DNA of 64,000 bases from positions 1 through 64,000 of the forward strand of contig JALLLT010000085.1 in NCBI GenBank assembly GCA_025266875.1, written 5' to 3'. A program made the position numbers and the translations under genes. This stretch comes from Fennellomyces sp. T-0311. Taxonomy: Eukaryota; Mucoromycota; Mucoromycetes; Mucorales; Lichtheimiaceae. Below the pieces are notes generated by a model, which was not told where the DNA came from, did not search any database, and saw only the letters and a program-made list of their open reading frames with translations. Positions within the stretch are counted from its first letter, which is position 1. Every line of letters starts with the position of its first letter. Shown one piece after another: positions 12,305 through 23,443 of this stretch.

Positions 12305-12412
12305 CCAATCACTGGATCCACCTTACTCGAATAATGTTATGAAGCCTTCGGCCTACGGCCTCGGCGAAATGACTCATTATTCTTCGTTGGAAGGTGGATC
12401 CAGTGATTGTGG
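12305..12412. repeat. DIRS internal complementary region
   Basis: First half is the reverse complement of the left end (12101-12172); second half is the reverse complement of the right end (about 16237-16270). The two halves share one CATT where the ends meet, as expected of a copy of the circular junction. It lies near the 3' end of the coding strand, as in known DIRS elements. Confidence 0.9.
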
Positions 12413-13438
12413 ATTCAGAGCAAGCGAGGTAGATCCTTGAGGGTCGCCGAGTGTCAACGCCGTAAAGTTCGTCCTTGTTTCCCGTGACAAACGATAAAAT
12501 GCGTCGAAGATGGCCTTCGAAGACCAAGATCCATGGGCGACCACATCGTCTATGCATGCGCCAGCTTGAACGGCCCGAGTTGAGCCGAGTGCACGAGTCT
12601 TGACAGGTTTTCGTTGCGGGCCCTGCGGCATCAAATCCATGACTTTGCAGATATGTTTTCCAATACATTGTGAGCGGATGTGAGCGTTGAAATCGCGAAG
12701 GTCACGCAGCAAGTAGTTGATGTGGACTTGAGATAAGCATGGATGTGGTGCGCGACATGGACGAGTGGCAATACGTGCCATATAGGCCAAAAGGGTCCGA
12801 ACCGGGCAAATCGTGGCATCCGGATGTCGGGCGATCGTGATTGGCTTGGTGATCCGTTTACCTTGTCGCCGTTCCTTCGGTGCTACCACCAATAGAATGA
12901 GCAGGTCATCGTCCTGCGTAGGTATAGAGGATTGATCCAAATCGATACGCTCAATGTCTGAGGGCCGCATAAAGCCACATACACCCAAGAGCCAAGCCAA
13001 TTTGCGTGTCAACAGCGGTGGATCCAGACCATCGTTTGCGCCAATGTGCTGAAAATGCAGAAGAATTGGTGAGATATCCACAGGCCCGGAAGGCGCCGGT
13101 TTGATCGTCATATCATTCAATGACTGGAAATACGCCTTGTATAGCCACGATGATGTGATAGGATGACGATCCTCAAACAAATCCAAAATAGCTGATCGGT
13201 AGTTTTCCATGGTTGCAGTGGCCCAATGATGTTGCTTCTGGCCATGCGCCAGGAAGTTGATGAGATTGGCGGGTATGGGCTGAAGTGGCTCCAGGCCACG
13301 TTCAATACACCAGTTCCGAAACCGTCCTTGGATAGCTGAATATTGTTGTTGTGCTTGTTGTCGGTCAGGGTGAAGCACCAGGTCGATCACGTTCTGATCG
13401 GCTCCAGCCACCGTTAGACGTCGCATTTTATGTTCCAT
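12377..13438 (-). CDS. DIRS tyrosine recombinase
   Basis: Integrates the circular DNA form by site-specific recombination. I start it at ATG 13438, which overlaps the end of the RNase H frame by a few codons, as usual in DIRS. N-terminal SAM-like/core-binding region around residues 25-110. The catalytic Arg is in CGFMRPSDIERI; the C-terminal box includes GSTRAVQAGA...AHGSW; the Tyr nucleophile is probably in FDAFYRLSRE. About 353 aa with no internal stop. The same frame happens to stay open to 16102, but upstream of 13438 it lies over the Gag and pol frames and shows no recombinase features. Confidence 0.88.
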   Translation of the reverse strand: MEHKMRRLTVAGADQNVIDLVLHPDRQQAQQQYSAIQGRFRNWCIERGLEPLQPIPANLINFLAHGQKQHHWATATMENYRSAILDLFEDRHPITSSWLYKAYFQSLNDMTIKPAPSGPVDISPILLHFQHIGANDGLDPPLLTRKLAWLLGVCGFMRPSDIERIDLDQSSIPTQDDDLLILLVVAPKERRQGKRITKPITIARHPDATICPVRTLLAYMARIATRPCRAPHPCLSQVHINYLLRDLRDFNAHIRSQCIGKHICKVMDLMPQGPQRKPVKTRALGSTRAVQAGACIDDVVAHGSWSSKAIFDAFYRLSRETRTNFTALTLGDPQGSTSLALNPQSLDPPSNEE

Positions 13439-14232
13439 GCTGCCAGGGACCAATGGGGGTTCTTCTCCAAGACGTTTGTTGTTTGACCGATGGCTGGAAG
13501 TACCGATGCACGAGGAATCGGGATTGATTTGTGGTATGTCATTTGCTGTATGGTTGGGAACCATATCGCAGATGGCCACCATGGTGTTATCACCATCGCG
13601 ACTGCCTTCTCCAGGCGAAGCTTGAGAAGAACCTGCGGAATCAGATTCCACGGAGGGCAAATGAACATGCGGCCGAGCTGATTCCATGTTATACTGAAGG
13701 CATCTGTTGCCCGGGCTTGTGGATCCCATTGCCAAGTCACATAGTCCGGTAGATGAGTGTTCTTGCGATGGGCAAATAGGTCCACCTTGTGCGGGCCCCA
13801 CTTGCGATCCAGAAGTTGGAAGAATGAGTGAGATATTCTCCATTCCAATTGGTGTGTCAGGCGGCGAGATGGAGCATCGGCGGGGTTGAAGACCGATGGG
13901 ATGTAAGTCAACTGGATATGGGTCTGTGTCGTGAGACAGTAGTTCCATATATGTTTTGCCAGTGTCATGAGTGCATGAGATCGAGTGCCACCAAACTTGT
14001 TGATGTACGCGATGGTTGTGCTGTTGTCGCAGTATATGCGAATCCGGCGACAGCGGCAGACAGGTAAGTGAATGGCTTTCCATATCACTTGGAGCTCCTT
14101 CCAGTTGATGTGTTGCTTGAGTTCGGTGGGCGTCCACCGACCGTTCCAAGCTTGTTGATGATGAACCACACCCCATGCTGTGTCGGACGCGTCGGTAAAA
14201 AGTTCCATCTCGGGAGTCTGTGGGATAAGACT
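13414..14232 (-). CDS. DIRS RNase H and C-terminal domain
   Basis: Continues the RT frame after an in-frame TAG. RNase H begins with ELFTDASDTAWG (catalytic Asp), then the Glu of NWKELQ and the Asp of YCDNST. After it comes the region DIRS elements carry in place of an integrase: NPADAPSR, then a part resembling the methyltransferase-like domain (CPPWNLIPQVLLK...WWPSAIW). The frame ends at 13414, overlapping the recombinase start. Confidence 0.85.
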   Translation of the reverse strand, partial: SLIPQTPEMELFTDASDTAWGVVHHQQAWNGRWTPTELKQHINWKELQVIWKAIHLPVCRCRRIRIYCDNSTTIAYINKFGGTRSHALMTLAKHIWNYCLTTQTHIQLTYIPSVFNPADAPSRRLTHQLEWRISHSFFQLLDRKWGPHKVDLFAHRKNTHLPDYVTWQWDPQARATDAFSITWNQLGRMFICPPWNLIPQVLLKLRLEKAVAMVITPWWPSAIWFPTIQQMTYHKSIPIPRASVLPAIGQTTNVLEKNPHWSLAAWNIKCDV

Positions 14233-15285
14233 CTAGCCGTTCCATCCCGACAACTTGTCCTTCCACCACTTCAACTCGTTGATCGCCTGGCCGTCCAGGA
14301 GGACCGTTGCTGACCATGATTGCATCCTCTTCAATGCCTCGTTCTTTGCCTGGAGCAGATATCGAGTCTGCAAACGCGCCGGAAACACTGCCATCGTCAT
14401 AGCTTGTGCCTTGCCGATGAACGCTGCTAGATGACGTACTGAAGATGTTTGGCGGCGGATGATCTTGGTAGCCTCGCGTCGAAGGTTGCGAATTTTCATG
14501 GCCGGTACTTCCAAGGTCATGGTGCGGGTATCGATTTTGAAGCCCAAGTGTTCGATCTGCTGAGAAGGCGTGAGGTTGGATTTGGCAATTTTGATCAAAA
14601 ACCCCAACTCTTGAAGCTTGCGCTTTACCTTCTCGGTATGATGAAGTGATGTTTGTTTGTCTTTGGCTACCATGAGCAAATCGTCCAAATAGATCGACAA
14701 TCGAATCCCTTGTCTTCTTGCCCAACGACTGAGTGGTCTGAGGATTTTCGTGAAAACCATTGGGCTGAGCTTCATGCCGAAGCTGAGGACCTTCCAACGA
14801 TATAGTTTGCCTCGCCACGGAAATTGCAGAAATTTTCGAGAGCATGGATGAATCGGCTGATGAAGAAATGCGTCCTCCAAATCGATGCTGGTTAGATAGT
14901 CGTTCTGGTTGATCAAGGCACATGCGGTCTTCAGAGTCTCCCTTTTGAACGGGCGTGATTTGATATACTGGTTGAGTGGTCGAAGATTGAGAACAGGCCT
15001 CCGCCCCCCAGTCTTCTTGGGGATGGTGAAAAGCTGCGACCGATAGCCGATTGAGTGTGGCGGTATCTCTTCGATGGCACGCTTTGACAAAAGTTGCGAA
15101 ATTTCGTGGTCTATCTCGCGTTGTTGCTTGGCTGACTGTGAATAATTGGGTAGCCGTGGGTTGCCTGTGAGCAGTGGTGGACGAATGAATGGGATTTTGA
15201 AACCTTTGTGGACTACGCGACGAACCCACTCTTCCGTCGTTAGTGATTTCCATGCTGGTAAGAAAGAGGATAGTCGGCCCCCTAC
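14233..15285 (-). pseudogene. DIRS reverse transcriptase, ended by an in-frame TAG
   Basis: RT palm and fingers: FTIPKKTGGRRPVLNLRPLN, DLEDAFLHQPI with the first Asp, and the active site YLDDLLMVA. The frame is entered upstream of the Gag stop, so it is probably reached by frameshift or overlapping initiation. TAG at 14233-14235 separates it from RNase H, and both sides are in one frame without a gap, so this is a nonsense change or a readthrough site. The rest of the element is open, so readthrough cannot be excluded from sequence. Confidence 0.85.
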
Positions 15286-16112
15286 TGGGAGGCTGCTCGC
15301 GTTTTTCCCTTGTCGCGCAGCTGGGGGCCCGATCGAAAATCCTTTTTGGGTCCTTCGTAACCACCTTTACGAGTGGTGAACCGTTCGTGCGAGTCAGATG
15401 TGCTCTCATCTGATCGATTGTGGAAGGAATACGCCTTTCCTTTCCATTGTCTTGCCAGCCTTTGGGTGGATTGCTGTACAGCCTTCGATAATTTGGCATG
15501 TTCAACAAGTTCGTGCGGATCCAACAACGGCCCCGGACCAGTGCTAGAAAGTCTTGGAGCTTGTCCTGGTAAGCCGGAAGCCTTGAACATGTTATCGATG
15601 CGGAGTTGAGTGATGTAGGACGCTGTGTCCACCAATAACGCATGTACGACATTGGCAAAATCCAATGCATGTGCCTTGGAGATGCCGTCTTCACGCACAA
15701 CGGTATGGATGAATTGGTCGATAGGCCGAGTGATGCCTGAAAGACGAAATTGTACATCGGATAGCTGGTGGTCTGTGCGTTTGGCTGCGGGGTTGACATT
15801 GACACTGTTGAGATGCGGTGGCATGTATTCCCGCGCCACATTCCGTGGGCAGTCAGCCAGAAAACGACGACGCTCCACCTCCGGCAAAGGGCTACGAAAG
15901 AAATCCTTTTCCAGCCCGGGAAGAGCTTCCACGAATGCAGGATAAGGTCTAAAATCGGATTCCACCGGGCGCTCTGACATAGCAGGGTCACCCGCATGTG
16001 GTGAACGCTGCTCCAGGGATCCGATGCACCGAAGAAGAGCCATAGCCCAAACAGGAGGTTGGTCATCAGAAGGTTGGTGCTGAGTGTGTGCAGGTTGATC
16101 ATTTTCTGACAT
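15282..16112 (-). CDS. DIRS Gag-like ORF1
   Basis: 276 aa from ATG 16112. It is the first gene inside the right ITR, with the position and size of the putative nucleocapsid protein of DIRS elements. Pro/Gln-rich N-terminus, helical middle, Arg/Lys-rich C-terminus (SHERFTTRKGGYEG...), consistent with nucleic-acid binding. No zinc knuckle seen. Its stop lies inside the overlapping pol frame. Confidence 0.75.
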   Translation of the reverse strand: MSENDQPAHTQHQPSDDQPPVWAMALLRCIGSLEQRSPHAGDPAMSERPVESDFRPYPAFVEALPGLEKDFFRSPLPEVERRRFLADCPRNVAREYMPPHLNSVNVNPAAKRTDHQLSDVQFRLSGITRPIDQFIHTVVREDGISKAHALDFANVVHALLVDTASYITQLRIDNMFKASGLPGQAPRLSSTGPGPLLDPHELVEHAKLSKAVQQSTQRLARQWKGKAYSFHNRSDESTSDSHERFTTRKGGYEGPKKDFRSGPQLRDKGKTRAASQ

Positions 16113-16164
16113 CTCTAGGACGAACGTTGGTCGTGCACCTGAAGCGAACTCTCTCGAGAGAAAA

Positions 16165-16256: not shown

Positions 16257-16270
16257 CCAACGAAGAATAA

Positions 16271-16420
16271 TGTTGCAACCATGATAGTCCGGTCCATCAA
16301 TATTGCAGCCATGGTAGCCCTGCCAATTATTATTGTAACTATGATAATCCTGTCAATCAATGTTGAAACATTGATAGTTTGGTTAATTATTACTGTAACT
16401 ATGATAGCCAAGCAGCGACA
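16271..16420 (-). repeat. right arm of foldback element, outer part
   Basis: The 30-bp units resume directly after the DIRS border in phase with 12100. The outer units are more diverged than those of the left arm. Confidence 0.8.
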
Positions 16421-16458
16421 TCCCGAATATGGGTAGCGCCTTCCAGCGACTTCATGAG

Positions 16459-16480
16459 CATTTAAATGCACAGAAATGCC
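16459..16480 (+). repeat. candidate left TIR of the Plavaka element
   Basis: Starts CATTTAAATGCA and pairs with 23159-23180. AT-rich and short, so a chance match is possible. Confidence 0.5.
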
Positions 16481-16717
16481 TAAAAGGCAACTTTAGCAAC
16501 CCCCGTAAATTAAATTGACATACGCGCGCTAAAGTGAATTTAAAGGACCCAGATAGCTATCTAATATCAATTAAAGGCACTTAGATGTCAACGCTTTAGG
16601 ATATAATTTTCCTATAAACACGTCCTGAGCTTGCTGTCCGTTTGTTATTGTGATTCAAGCATACATTACTTTATTGAGTGAATATACAATCTGAATACGG
16701 TTATCACAGACTTGCAA

Positions 16718-18911
16718 CTACACTAACGGCTCGTCATCTGCGATCATATCGTATAAGCGAAGCTCGCGATTTACCAGCATTCCAGTTGTCCATCCGTTGC
16801 GACGTCGATCATTTGCCCTCAAGCGGTTTACTGCAACTGTGTGGAAGGCAATCGCTTCCTCCCAATCGATCGATTGTGCTTCAGGTGTGCGCTGATACAA
16901 CATGTCATGATATGTACGGTGCCAGAAAGAATCTTCAGAAAACTGATCGCCGTCATCAGTGTAGGTTGGATGTCTCGCGTGTTCAGCCATATGGAAGAAT
17001 ATCTGAAATAAACAAGTATCAGTAATATACAGATGCCACTTAGTACCAAAATATGAGATATTGTTACCATAGTATACGTCAATGCGATTAAAGTACGAGG
17101 TATCTCTTCAGGTTCAGGCGACAATCGCCGTCCCCCCCTTCCTTTCCTGTTGAAAAACACTTTGAAGATCATTTCTGATAAGACGGTACTTTGCATTAAT
17201 TCACCGTTTTGGCTGAATCGTGCACGTGCAAATCTGGATGGGATTTATATATTACGCTCCAAAAAAAAATGCTTAACGAGGAAGACATACCGAGAAAAAT
17301 CCAAGAGATACAAATACTGGTTACGGTTTCGATTTCTGAACTGTGGCTCGAGGAATTCAGGATTGAAAGTATAGCGAAGGAGAAAGACATCGACCTGGCT
17401 ATGAGCAGACACTCGTGTAGCACTTAACACGCGACGAAACTATTTATACGAGTTAGTAATTTCGTCCTAGGTGCCGCTATGATAGTGACAATACTTCTTT
17501 GCGTATGCTAGGATCAATTTCGTATGTCACTTCACCACTTTCCGTAGCTTCCGCGACTTCAAGAGCGATTCGATGACAATCAGTTGAAATCCCGTTCGTG
17601 CTCGGGAAAGCTTGCTCCAAATACACGTAACGACGCATGCGACCACGAAATTCATCCCAAATATCTGTGTCGTCCTCAGAAAATATAATCACTTCAGTGT
17701 TTCGTCTATAAAAGCTAGTGAGCCACAGTTCACAACCTCTTTCGACCATTTACCGATTCCGTATCACAAGGGGAGTAGTATTGGTAGGTGTAGGACTGGC
17801 ACGCATTCGGTTAGCAGGTACATGAAGATCATCACTAGGATAATTGCTCAATACATTAGATAACATAATAATACACGCGTATTGTTAGTTACTCAAGGAG
17901 AACATGATCTGCACTTGACACAGGAGGAAGTTGTCGTCTTAGCTGAGCACCGCCATCACGAGTTGTAGATCCTGTTGCAATGGGTCTATTTTAAACGAGA
18001 GAATGAATATTGGCATGAATGTAACAAGGAAATTATGTATACCTTTGCGGGGATGAGCTCGATGCCATATGCATTTCCCTTCGTTCCTCATTTTAACCCA
18101 TTGTACAGAATAATACATTGCCGTAGTTACTTACGGGTAAAGAGAGTCGTCATCATTTTCGAGTCGCCTCTGAGTAGAAGTGTCATCAAGTGGAAACTCA
18201 TTTTCCAGTTCAAACCACAGATCCGTGTCAGTTTGTTCGTGAGCAAGTATTGCTGCATCTAATAAAACATATTTAAGTTAGTCAATTAGGAGAAATATAA
18301 CGGTCATCCTTACATATTTCTGCTGATGAGGTTGGTTGTTGAAGATCTGCATACGACTTAGAATAAGATATAAACAACAGGATCACTACCGAAACTTACT
18401 TGATGAGTTCGATCCATCAAACAGATTTTGATCCAGTGGCTGCAGGCTTCGATTGGGCGGGCGGCGAACTTGTTGGTCCACCTGGTTCGTTGAAGGTGCA
18501 TTTACTTGTGGGGTATGCCGATTGCTTGGATTCTGAAGAAGACCGCGCGGTTCAGCCGGAGCAGTGGAGGAGGTTGACAACACCGTTCCAGGCACAGGGT
18601 TCCCTCTGGCGCTGTGAAGTGAGTTTACTATACTAATTGTCTGCCTAAATTACAGTAGTTAACCTGACTGGACGATTGCTTGAGCTTGTGTTCCTTTCTT
18701 GAGCAATGATACTTTGATTTTCCTTCTGAGTAATCCTGGTACGCTCTGATCGGTTGAGCATTTTATGAGTATAATCGAAATAGATTTGACTGATACACAA
18801 TAATTTACTAGATCTTAAGAAAGGAGCATTCGCAGAACCGGGAAGAATTCGTGAGTTTGATTCAACAAGGACTGGATCTCTGCGTTTTCGTATTAATTTT
18901 TTCGGAGGCAT
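16718..18911 (-). CDS. companion protein of the Plavaka element, 12 exons
   Basis: I do not know its function. Exons (minus strand): 18809-18911, 18664-18745, 18400-18611, 18314-18346, 18135-18258, 18043-18086, 17893-17971, 17754-17834, 17714-17495, 17439-17291, 17233-17068, 17002-16718. Together they give 1578 nt, 525 aa, open throughout with GT-AG at every junction. N-terminal half: basic start (PPKKLIRKRRDP) then Ser/Pro/Gln-rich, acidic and probably disordered. C-terminal half is a folded, helix-rich domain with many Tyr, Phe and Trp residues (IPRTLIALTYTMIFF, DSFWHRTYHDML). Its pattern recalls the DUF6532-like proteins found beside fungal transposons, which I could not verify. It is divergent from the transposase, 99 bp apart, so the two probably share a promoter. 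Confidence 0.75.
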
Positions 18912-19010
18912 GGTGGCAAAGAAGGTGTAGAAGAGTAAAATGCGCAGCAGCAGAGTCGCGAGACTTAAGAAATAATCTGCTGCATTGAGCAATGCCTTGC
19001 AGCTTCTTTT
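18912..19010. promoter_or_regulatory. candidate bidirectional promoter
   Basis: Only 99 bp separate the two start codons of the head-to-head pair. No clear TATA box; inferred from position alone. Confidence 0.45.
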
Positions 19011-22000
19011 GTGGCAATGGAGGACCTTTGCCCTTTACGCAAGAAATGCCGGAAAATGAATCCATTCTCCAGTCAATTTGCCCTAGAGCAGCATATACAA
19101 ACAACCCATCAGAATGATCCAATCCCATTACCGAAGCCAAAAGTGCCACAAGCAATCGCGTCTAGTCTTCCTCAGCCACGAAGTCCTCCAGCTCCAGATC
19201 AGATAGACTCTATCGAAGGATACTTCAACGACGTAACAATTTCAGTGTTTTTAAATGCTCATTGAGTCTCTCTCAAATAACAAAAAACGAAGGATTGTGA
19301 CTTAGGGGACTATGATGACACAGTTCGTAGCTCTAATGCCGATGATCAATCAGACGTTTCTCGTCAATTAGAAAAAGGTAAAATACGCTGTATTTACCTG
19401 CCTAAATACAGTACCAATATGCTTTTCGTGTAGAATCAATCGGAGACCCTCCTGAGTTTATCGAACTGCAAAGTCTAAACTGTGGCGACAAGTACAGAGG
19501 GTCCTTAAATGAGCTAGAACGTGATCTCGCAGAGTGGGCGTTTTCAAAAGGTGTAACTAACGAAACTTATGAAAGGTAACTATTATATGCTTGATTATAT
19601 TTCAATTAACCTTGGTATATGTAGCCTTATAAAAATAGTTGACAAGCATCGTACAAGCGCGATTACATCCACTGAACCGCACACGATCTCAACAACAACA
19701 TTAGATAAACTTAAGGAGAGACTAGAAGACGAGGCAGAGACAACAACTATATTGGTATAAGTTAACAACGCGGGGAAAGCTATGTACAAGACTAAAAGGT
19801 TTTTGTAGCCGTTTACAGATCACAAAGTGAATCTTCAGGACGTCGTCGACTTCCCTGCAAATCGCATAGAAGATTTTGATGAAGCTGTTGGGGAAATACA
19901 TTTCAGCTATAGAAACATCATCGATGTCTGTGAGCTAATTTTTTCTCATCCGATATTTTGGAGTGTAATGATCAACGGCCCGAGCATCTATCGACGGAAT
20001 GGGGAACGCGTGTATCGTGACATAGACTCAGGAGAATGGTGGGAGGAACTACAGGTACTTCATATATCTTCCCTTTTTATTGGCTTAGCGTGTCTAATGA
20101 GTGGTATCATAGTTGAAGTTCCTCGGAGGATATGTCATACTCGTCATCATGTTATCATCAGATCAAACCATTGTGTCAGGGAATGGACGACATAAGGCTT
20201 GGCCCTTATATATTAAACTGGGTATATTGAGGTGGACTGCACTATTAACATATGCTAACTCGTGTAGACTGAAATAGGCAACATTCCAATGGAGTATAGA
20301 AACACTGAGAAGTTTCATGCTAGCCGTGTTTTAGCATATTTGCCTGTCATCGAATGGAAGAGCAGCACCTCCCCACCATCGTGGTTAGCTACAGCAAGGA
20401 TTGCAATCTTCCATCATTGTCAATCGCTCATTCTTAAGCCACTAAAGCGGCTAGACGATAGGTATGTCACTGATCCAGTTTGATAACTAACATCATCATT
20501 GGAATTAATTTTCTTCTTTTAATCTTCGAAAGACATCAAGCATTTATGTTGAAAGGCCCCTATGGGCAGACGTACCCCTGTATTCCAGCACTGGCATGCT
20601 ATATTGCTGATTTGCCCGAACAGTAAGCTGTATGTGTACATATGATGATGTCCAAATACTGACGTGACAGCAATAATAGGCGCATGCTTGCTGTGGTGAA
20701 AGGAGGGAACTCCAAGATCGCTTGCCCACGCTGCTGTCTTCCATCTGTATATTTTCATCTTCCTTGCACATGTGGGAAATATAATGAAGGTACTCGGCCG
20801 CGAACGGAACAATATATGAGAACTCTCTATGATTATGGAAGTGCAAGACGAAACAGTGGTCAAGATGTCGAAGGACTGTGTCGAAATTATTCAACACACA
20901 TTGTCTGGGTAATAAAGTTTAATATACGATGCTGTGCATGCTTATTAACGTAATTTTCTGTCATTGCTAGAATGCATTCTGGGATGTTCCACTTTTCAAT
21001 ATTTACGAGTCTTTAGTGGTGGATGATCTTCATCAGTTAGGCGGTGTCTATCGTCATCTTGTGGAGTGCCTTGAGAAAATGATCAAAAGTCAACCCAGAG
21101 GAAGCGCAATACTTAAACGTATTAACAAGAGGTACGTATGGATCGTATACTGTGTCGAAGGACCATTACCTATTTTACGTTTCAGAGCAAGTTTTATCGC
21201 ACCCTTCAAGGGCTTACGGCCGTTCAAAGCAGGCTATATGTTCAGTGCATTAAAGAACCCCACTTACACAGAAATGAAGAGTCATATGGCTGTAAGGGTT
21301 AAAGCACAACTGACGAATATGATATGATGGCTGATGAAATTGCTAATGTTATTGTAATTAGATCTTGATGGTATGCATCCACGACGTTGATATCCAGGCA
21401 ACAAGATGCTTGCGCAGATTCATCGATTTCTTTCATACAGCAACTCTAAAGGAGCACTCTTCAGATACATTACGTCAATTGGATCTTGCATTGAAAGAAT
21501 ATAATGAACTGAGCCCTGTCTTTCAAAGTTACTCTGCAGTAAGTATTATACGGTATTGATATATCCTTTTAATATCAGCTATACTGAACTCTTACTGTAT
21601 CCTTAGTCGAAATTACGTTTCCCTAAAAATCATATGATGTGGAAGTATGAAGGAGATATTCGACGGTTTGGCTCTGTATCAGGATACAGTACGTGTCAGC
21701 CTGAACATCAGCATCGGGTCGACGCTAAAACTCCGGGGAAACGAACTAATTTTCACAAGAATAAAATGACAATGCAGGTACAGTACTTGTCTCCGAGTTT
21801 TTTTTTTAAACTCGGCACTCACACTTTATAATACCTAGATGGGAAAATATGTCTATTATCGCGATCTTCTATTCGATAACTATTGCGACGCATGGGTTGA
21901 CACTACACAACGCCAAGACACAATCACTTTAAGTATCCAACCGGTTCATACAAAGCAGCGAATCCTTGGGTCAGCACTTTGGGATAAGAAACCGGTTCCA

Positions 22001-22841
22001 GTTGCTCAGGTTCAACAAACGTACTCTACCTTCCCTCGACTCGTACCACTTATTCGCTGCTGCCTGCATACATTATCTGTAGGAATGGATACCACCTGTA
22101 GTCTCCAAAATATGCCCGAACTTAAAGAGTATACGGTAAGTTGCAACAATAGTTCCATTTGATGAATTCTGTCTAACACCACATACACCATACTCCGTCC
22201 AGGCTACGGTATACCAGAGTCTAAAAATTCATGATGTGAGTAGCAGTGGTAAGGAGTATGACGCTACTTTGAGAGTCCACGAGGATTTCCATGGACAGAA
22301 GCGCAATGATTTTGTGAAGTTTGAAGATGGTACTATCGGCAAGTTACTTTTGTTTTTCAATGTGCATCCACGTTCAACTGAGACGTACAACTTGCCTGAC
22401 TCGATCGACCTATGTCTTGTGAAACGATTTGAACATACTAGGAAACCACATCATACAGGTTTTCAAGTTCTTACCGTACCGTCTACGGAACGAGTATTTG
22501 ATTGCTACGTCGTCCAGCCTGTTGCAGATATTGGCCATGCGATTCATGTTGTACCGGACTTTTCTACAGCACTTAATGGACAAGAGGATGGAGATATTTT
22601 TGAGCAATACTTCATCAATTACGATGCTGATCCGGAACATAGTGACAAAGGAATTCTACCGGAAATTCAGAACTTAGAAACGTGGAAGCTTAGCGATAGT
22701 AGCGATGTACAGCTGGGACATAATGAGGACGGTGGCATTGATGAAAATTTCGATAACGGTTATGAAAGCAGCAATAGCAATGATTCAGGAGATAACTCTA
22801 ACGAGGATCTGATAGTGAGTTATTTTAGCATACAAACATGA
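19011..22841 (+). CDS. Plavaka-type transposase, 15 exons, open throughout
   Basis: Exons: 19011-19232, 19293-19377, 19434-19575, 19625-19754, 19809-20054, 20113-20221, 20278-20461, 20533-20622, 20680-20908, 20971-21131, 21186-21291, 21362-21538, 21607-21777, 21839-22135, 22203-22841. This gives 2988 nt, 995 aa, no stop. N-terminus: a C2H2-like finger (CPLRKKC...QHIQTTH). Core features of the family: VIMLSSDQTIVSGNG then WPLYIKLGNI, LAYLPVIEW, zinc pair ACPRCC, and FWDVPLFNIYESLVVDDLHQL leading to VYRHLVECL. The C-terminus is acidic, Asn/Ser-rich. In the first intron the acceptor at 19292 is chosen because only it keeps the next exon open. All introns are 48-70 nt. This is one of the best candidates for an active transposase in the window. 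Confidence 0.88.
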
Positions 22842-23158
22842 ATAACACTATTACGATATATATCTTTTTCACACTACTATCATCTCTCTTGATCACAATT
22901 AATTATAGACCGGAAAACTTTATGCCTAATAATTGCCCAAGTTATAAAAAGCATATTATAAGTGAAGTAGATTCAAGTAACGTCGCAGAAATTATAAATT
23001 GATTACCGCGTATGCTATTCATCTCAAGTGGTAATAGGAAACGCTGTAAGTCAGTGGAGTTGATAAAAAACACCTTCAAAGGAACTTATGTGCATTAGAA
23101 AATCCAAATTCCTTCAAGCACATTTAAAGACAATAAATTCATTCAAAAGTATTATAAA

Positions 23159-23180
23159 GGCATTTTTATGCATTTAAATG
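23159..23180 (-). repeat. candidate right TIR of the Plavaka element
   Basis: Inverted partner of 16459-16480, lying 317 bp after the transposase stop. The 22842-23158 stretch between is non-coding and AT-rich. Confidence 0.5.
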
Positions 23181-23443
23181 GAAAATCATATTTGCGATGG
23201 ACAGTAAAAGTCCACACTACAACGAATATGAATATAGGTAGATACATCTTCTATAGCTATACTACAAGTATTCTGTATATTAGCTTGTAAAATGCTTAAG
23301 CACAAAAGGCATTTTTTTAGTATCTGTGTACAAATACTAAACGAGCACGAACTTGCTTTCTAAATAAGGACAATAAGCAAAGCGACCATATAATTATAAA
23401 TATATTTGTTTTATGGTATTACTCTTTTCTCTACTAAATTACA
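23181..23443. other. AT-rich stretch before KDZ-2
   Basis: No gene. Probably the terminal and promoter part of the KDZ-2 element; no inverted repeat recognised. Confidence 0.4.

Follow-up and report, generated by a model that had tools for sequence, protein, structure and literature searches.

Plavaka transposons have been placed in the CMCT clade, together with EnSpm/CACTA, in a 2025 paper whose available part also gives PlavakaB 2-3 bp target duplications and CATCA..TGATG ends (PMC12730594). Here we describe an element of this group that lies in a 64,000-nucleotide stretch of the Fennellomyces sp. T-0311 genome (contig JALLLT010000085.1, positions 1 to 64,000 of the forward strand; hereafter the window, to which all coordinates without a contig number refer). 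The element spans positions 16419..23199 and carries two head-to-head genes, one encoding a Plavaka transposase and the other, its companion, a protein of the DUF6532 family (PF20149). It resembles PlavakaB in having a PF18759 transposase, CATC..GATG ends and a 2-bp target duplication. It differs in the fifth terminal base, the ends being CATCC..CGATG in the window and CATCA..CGATG in a relative on contig C142, as against CATCA..TGATG in the paper. The host is different as well, since the window comes from a fungus of the family Lichtheimiaceae in the Mucorales whereas the families described in the available text come from Agaricomycotina, and we found no mention there of the divergent DUF6532 gene (PMC12730594).

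Two-protein organization has precedents among DNA transposons. As described in the accessible part of the CACTA literature, TNPA binds subterminal repeats, TNPA and the transposase are both required, and the accessory proteins show little similarity between elements (PMC2613891). The window element shares with CACTA/En-Spm the presence of two element proteins, short imperfect terminal repeats, subterminal motifs and a 2-3 bp duplication; however, TNPA and TNPD are alternative transcripts of one gene, whereas the window element has two divergent genes, and binding of subterminal sites by the window companion, modelled on TNPA, would be an analogy (PMC2613891, same portion). The Harbinger-type 'Nuwa' is likewise a DNA transposon that encodes an accessory protein beside its transposase, but there the partner is of the Myb/SANT type and the transposase belongs to a different superfamily (PMC12730594, available part); the window companion has no Myb/SANT match. 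DUF6532 itself has no assigned function in Pfam, and the window adds genomic context to it. The accessible portion of a Ganoderma domain list has DUF6532 (PF20149) and Plavaka among the domains that are extra in the same species (PMC8955403). Plavaka is mentioned in papers on Marasmius oreades and Rhizophagus, in whose available parts we found no second gene, and our literature search returned no paper linking Plavaka to either Mucoromycota or 'accessory protein'. An earlier note on this DNA had suggested that the companion would be an undescribed part of the transposition system, or a passenger. The first suggestion is in line with our finding no description of the Plavaka-DUF6532 pairing in the literature covered; the 2014 founding paper lies outside that literature, and it or the Repbase entries may note the pairing.

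The borders of the element were established from a second copy and from empty sites. A DNA search of the 45.6-Mb assembly (182 contigs) located a near-identical copy on contig C151 (95700-102481). The span common to the two copies is 16419-23199, at 99.8% identity and with unrelated flanks; the 11 substitutions and the one 1-base indel separating them all fall within 16459-23180, and the outer 40 and 19 bases of the element show zero differences. Using the two window flanks joined together as a query, we found uninterrupted matches at C19:26231-26828 (99%) and C1:1811784-1812382 (97%). These empty sites read AGCCAAGCGGCGACAGTAAAAG, while the occupied site in the window reads ..GCGA[element]GACAG..; this gives the element a length of 6,781 bp and a flanking 2-bp target duplication, GA (16417..16418 on the left and 23200..23201 on the right). 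Copy comparison and a genome pattern search define its terminal inverted repeats, which have the form CATC..GATG: CATCCCGAATATG on the left (16419..16431, plus strand) and CATCGCAAATATG on the right, on the other strand (23187..23199, minus strand). The pattern CATCSCRAATATG occurs seven times genome-wide, and four of these occurrences are the ends of the window and C151 copies.

The element is thus real and intact: a cut-and-paste DNA transposon of the Plavaka group that has moved recently and resembles PlavakaB. For present-day activity there is a single pointer in the sequence, the young second copy, which suggests that the element may still move. The earlier note had recognised an intact Plavaka element, but its borders (16459-23180), drawn at a 22-bp inverted repeat enclosing the gene pair, need correction to those given above. 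The repeat is real (23 nt, 91% complementary; recovered by inverted-repeat search at 16459..16481 and 23158..23180), yet it is not the border of the element: the true termini lie 40 bp (left) and 19 bp (right) outside it, and the C151 alignment together with the empty sites rules it out as the element end. As evidence that would speak against its proposal, the note had named other Plavaka copies without the companion and without the inverted repeat; the C151 copy has both.

The transposase gene (19017..22841, plus strand) matches PF18759 at 155.5 bits (cut-off 26.3; E 2.7e-45) over residues 219-507. The automatic model had 14 exons and 1009 aa; after one further intron was split by hand, the predicted gene has 15 exons and encodes 991 aa. 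Its counterpart in the C151 copy is open and shows no amino-acid difference, and over the span that aligns, the window transposase is 56% identical to that of C142. By eye, the N-terminus shows a C2H2-like spacing of Cys and His residues that is also present in the C142, C18 and C13 families, and the SDQT, CPRC, VDDLHQ and EHQH motifs recur, some of them altered, in five spliced relatives. These may be the catalytic DDE residues with the C(2)C and H motifs. A search of PDB sequences with the first 680 transposase residues returned 0 matches.

For the companion gene (16718..18911, minus strand) we could rely on an NCBI protein from the same organism, BJV82DRAFT_675872 (522 aa), which in a spliced alignment maps letter for letter on the window with 12 exons and 11 GT-AG introns (exons 18911-18809, 18745-18664, 18605-18400, 18346-18314, 18258-18135, 18078-18043, 17985-17893, 17834-17754, 17705-17495, 17439-17291, 17233-17068 and 17002-16718). 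It matches PF20149 at 37.1 bits against a curated cut-off of 24, and four relatives are also above the cut-off. In the C151 copy the companion is open with two amino-acid differences, and thus both genes are open in both copies. A Pfam scan of the companion gave DUF6532 only: no enzymatic family above cut-off, no CACTA accessory family and no Myb/SANT match. Three protein searches for homologues yielded three proteins, all from Fennellomyces sp. T-0311 and none from outside it; these searches required shared 5-letter words and were limited in length, so absence elsewhere does not follow. Within the genome, full-length companions of the window and C142 are 40% identical, and over 255 codons of the domain the two show a pN of 0.32 against a saturated pS of 0.89, which points to purifying selection. 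The N-termini are basic in four families, with 7, 8, 8 and 12 K/R among the first 28 residues versus 2, 3, 5 and 2 D/E. Another DUF6532 relative, at C142:61037-62307, has a long Arg/Ser-rich C-terminal tail resembling that of SR proteins; the window companion is without such a tail.

The start codons of the two genes are separated by 105 bp (18912..19016), a putative bidirectional promoter. In the three other families whose DNA covered both starts the spacing is similar (C142, 94 bp; C18, 149 bp; C13, 107 bp), and the two genes would probably be expressed together from this shared start region of about 100 bp. The earlier note fared well on gene content: the Plavaka and DUF6532 identities, which it had proposed to check by profile search, are borne out by the scores above, both genes are indeed open, and its counts of 15 and 12 exons hold, the former with the hand-split model. 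Its figures for length need revision, from 995 to 991 aa for the transposase and from 525 to 522 aa for the companion; so does that for the head-to-head intergenic region, which is short as claimed but measures 105 rather than 99 bp.

Is the pair a peculiarity of this copy? We compiled Plavaka and DUF6532 clusters from assembly searches with the companion and its relatives, the transposase and PF18759; the resulting 79 Plavaka and 86 DUF6532 clusters are lower bounds. Plavaka matches came from one search at E<=0.001 (46 of 381 candidates scored) and another at E<=0.01 (123 of 181 scored), the latter contributing those among the matches listed, of 159. DUF6532 matches were accepted at E up to about 0.01 and weaker ones excluded, including two weak head-to-head matches on C106 and C119 (E 0.03). 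The PF20149 profile, with three exon matches over the whole genome, was too insensitive for split genes, and protein queries were used instead. Clusters were entered by hand, omitting matches inside clusters already entered.

Among the matches listed, a DUF6532 match lies upstream on the opposite strand, and hence head-to-head, within 5 kb of 59 of the 79 Plavaka clusters in the assembly, with 895-3597 bp between the matched stretches. All other arrangements within 5 kb amount to four (two upstream on the same strand and two downstream on the opposite strand). When positions were randomised 1000 times, treating the genome as one line, head-to-head pairs numbered 0.4 on average and four at most. 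The clusters include many that are mutual copies, and on the basis of the hit patterns they share we sorted them manually into 34 families, the unpaired cluster C112:179701 being left unmatched in this grouping; at least one pair occurs in 28 of the 34. The second copy, the empty sites and this recurrence across families show that the arrangement is more than chance. The pairing is solid in this genome, where the DUF6532 gene is a regular component of Plavaka elements. On contig C112, two Plavaka copies (C112:175978-178408 and C112:179701-181699) lie tail-to-tail with about 1.3 kb between them, and no companion was detected beside either.

What might the companion do? Since divergent families repeatedly have it next to the transposase, and by analogy with CACTA, we lean towards an accessory transposition protein that would be expressed with the transposase and act as the functional counterpart of CACTA TNPA. 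The transposase would cut at the CATC..GATG ends; the DUF6532 protein, made together with it, would act on the element's DNA, most likely recognising the subterminal TTTAAATG or GCCTTTTAGGCATTT sites, and would, TNPA-like, assist in drawing the two ends together or in sustaining the element's activity. A bolder version, to which we give less credence and which we offer tentatively, is that DUF6532 is the overlooked second Plavaka protein, part of an ancient system of two proteins expressed from a divergent promoter, in which the companion would bind subterminal repeats and be required for transposition; the DUF6532 expansions of fungi would then mostly be traces of Plavaka elements.

Candidate sites for such binding are present in the element ends. 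Three distinct TTTAAATG/CATTTAAA sites fall in the terminal 580 bp of the element in the window (mean of 0.15 among shuffles, with 2 of 2000 reaching three), and one falls in the 6,181 bp between the ends. The relative on C142 ends in CATCATAAACAC and CATCGTAAATTC (CATCA..CGATG), has an AT/AT duplication and carries four distinct sites in its ends (shuffle mean 0.11; reached by 0 of 2000). TTTAAA on its own is less striking in the window, with four occurrences (9 of 1000 shuffles reach this) compared with eight in C142 (0 of 1000). Both arms of the inverted repeat discussed above are palindromic subterminal sites containing CATTTAAATG, and the left one lies within a subterminal module, GCCTTTTAGGCATTTCTGTGCATTTAAATG.. 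(16448..16488, minus strand), that is also present in the C105/C61 family and identical to C105 at 35 of 41 positions. In local alignment this 41-bp companion-side block scores 52 against C105, where the best of 1000 shuffles reached 31, and 47 against C61, where the best reached 32. To the right of the relative element's end on C142, an apparent Harbinger-type transposase is recognisable by eye on the opposite strand.

Several observations weigh against an accessory protein acting at the element ends. The TTTAAATG motif was picked after the ends had been inspected; it is absent from the 900 bp past the companion stop in the C13 and C18 relatives, whose element ends are undefined. Alignments between the window and C142 are at chance level both for the companion-side ends (134 of 1000 shuffles reach the score) and for the right ends (207 of 1000). 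In the companion itself we recognised no DNA-binding domain or fold: two AlphaFold predictions on three sequences gave mean pLDDT values of 34.9 and 35.1, and a search of PDB sequences with a companion profile found no solved relative, the best E of 0.26 being taken as chance. The companions of C105 and C61 have drifted neutrally relative to each other (dN 0.032, dS 0.029, 264 codons). The C151 copy is without a target duplication at its borders; it is flanked by two high-copy repeats that differ from each other and are both interrupted mid-repeat, a search for its empty site found none, and its junctions reflect either a misjoined contig or a rearrangement that affected the element ends. Finally, the presence of the companion in other Plavaka copies, widespread as it is, has its exceptions: none was detected in 20 of the 79 Plavaka clusters, and no Plavaka in 27 of the 86 DUF6532 clusters. 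Decay, contig ends, the lower-bound match lists or true absence may account for the unpaired clusters.

The main rival to an accessory transposition protein is an anti-silencing factor, acting on host chromatin or RNA silencing at the element, as is proposed for the TET/JBP genes of other fungal transposons. According to the available part of PMC12730594, some Plavaka elements carry TET/JBP genes that are proposed to counter methylation; recurrence across families would fit such a factor equally well, and a basic N-terminus would suit a chromatin protein too. We nevertheless regard this explanation as rather unlikely: DUF6532 stands alone in the companion, with no enzymatic family above cut-off, and a fixed head-to-head position is unlike the TET/JBP cargo that moves between transposon lineages (PMC12730594, same part). 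Less probable again, in our estimation, is that the companion regulates transcription from the shared start region, some 100 bp long, and would thereby limit the dose of transposase, for while the genes are divergent, with starts 94-149 bp apart in four families, the detectable motif is enriched in the element ends.

That the companion is a passenger, a host gene acquired once by the window copy, was the other suggestion of the earlier note, and its match to nothing except a domain of unknown function, together with the DUF6532 clusters lacking a detected Plavaka, could be read that way. We consider it very improbable, disfavoured by recurrence: the companion lies inside the ends of both copies, and the head-to-head arrangement of 59 of the 79 clusters extends over many divergent families. 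That the two genes are neighbours by chance, or that clustered repeats and the searches produced an artefactual association, has a negligible claim. Contigs C142, C151 and C136 are among those rich in both Plavaka and DUF6532 matches, and the match lists are lower bounds, but clustering of repeats does not predict an association specific for side and orientation, with 59 head-to-head cases against four otherwise placed.

An accessory role would give DUF6532, a fungal domain family of unknown function, a testable task in addition to the concrete context that it gains here. At least in this genome, Plavaka elements are commonly two-gene transposons. Element libraries built on the transposase alone would overlook much of the element, and tallies of host genes would take in DUF6532 copies that are transposon-borne. 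The near-identical pair of copies, one of them with proven ends, lends itself directly to a two-component excision assay in laboratory yeast.

In the window, the Plavaka element is nested in a KDZ transposon (PF18758, CxC1/CxC2) that occupies approximately 16270-16418 and continues from 23200 to at least about 25.6 kb; on C19 and C1 the KDZ copies run through the Plavaka insertion site without a break. Further to the left, a long stretch on the minus strand (12377-16114) contains a reverse transcriptase (RVT_1, 14233-15366) and, by eye, an apparent tyrosine recombinase. Around 12.2 kb there is an inverted copy of sequence from around 16.2 kb, and the stretch is perhaps a DIRS-like element, likewise inserted in the KDZ copy.

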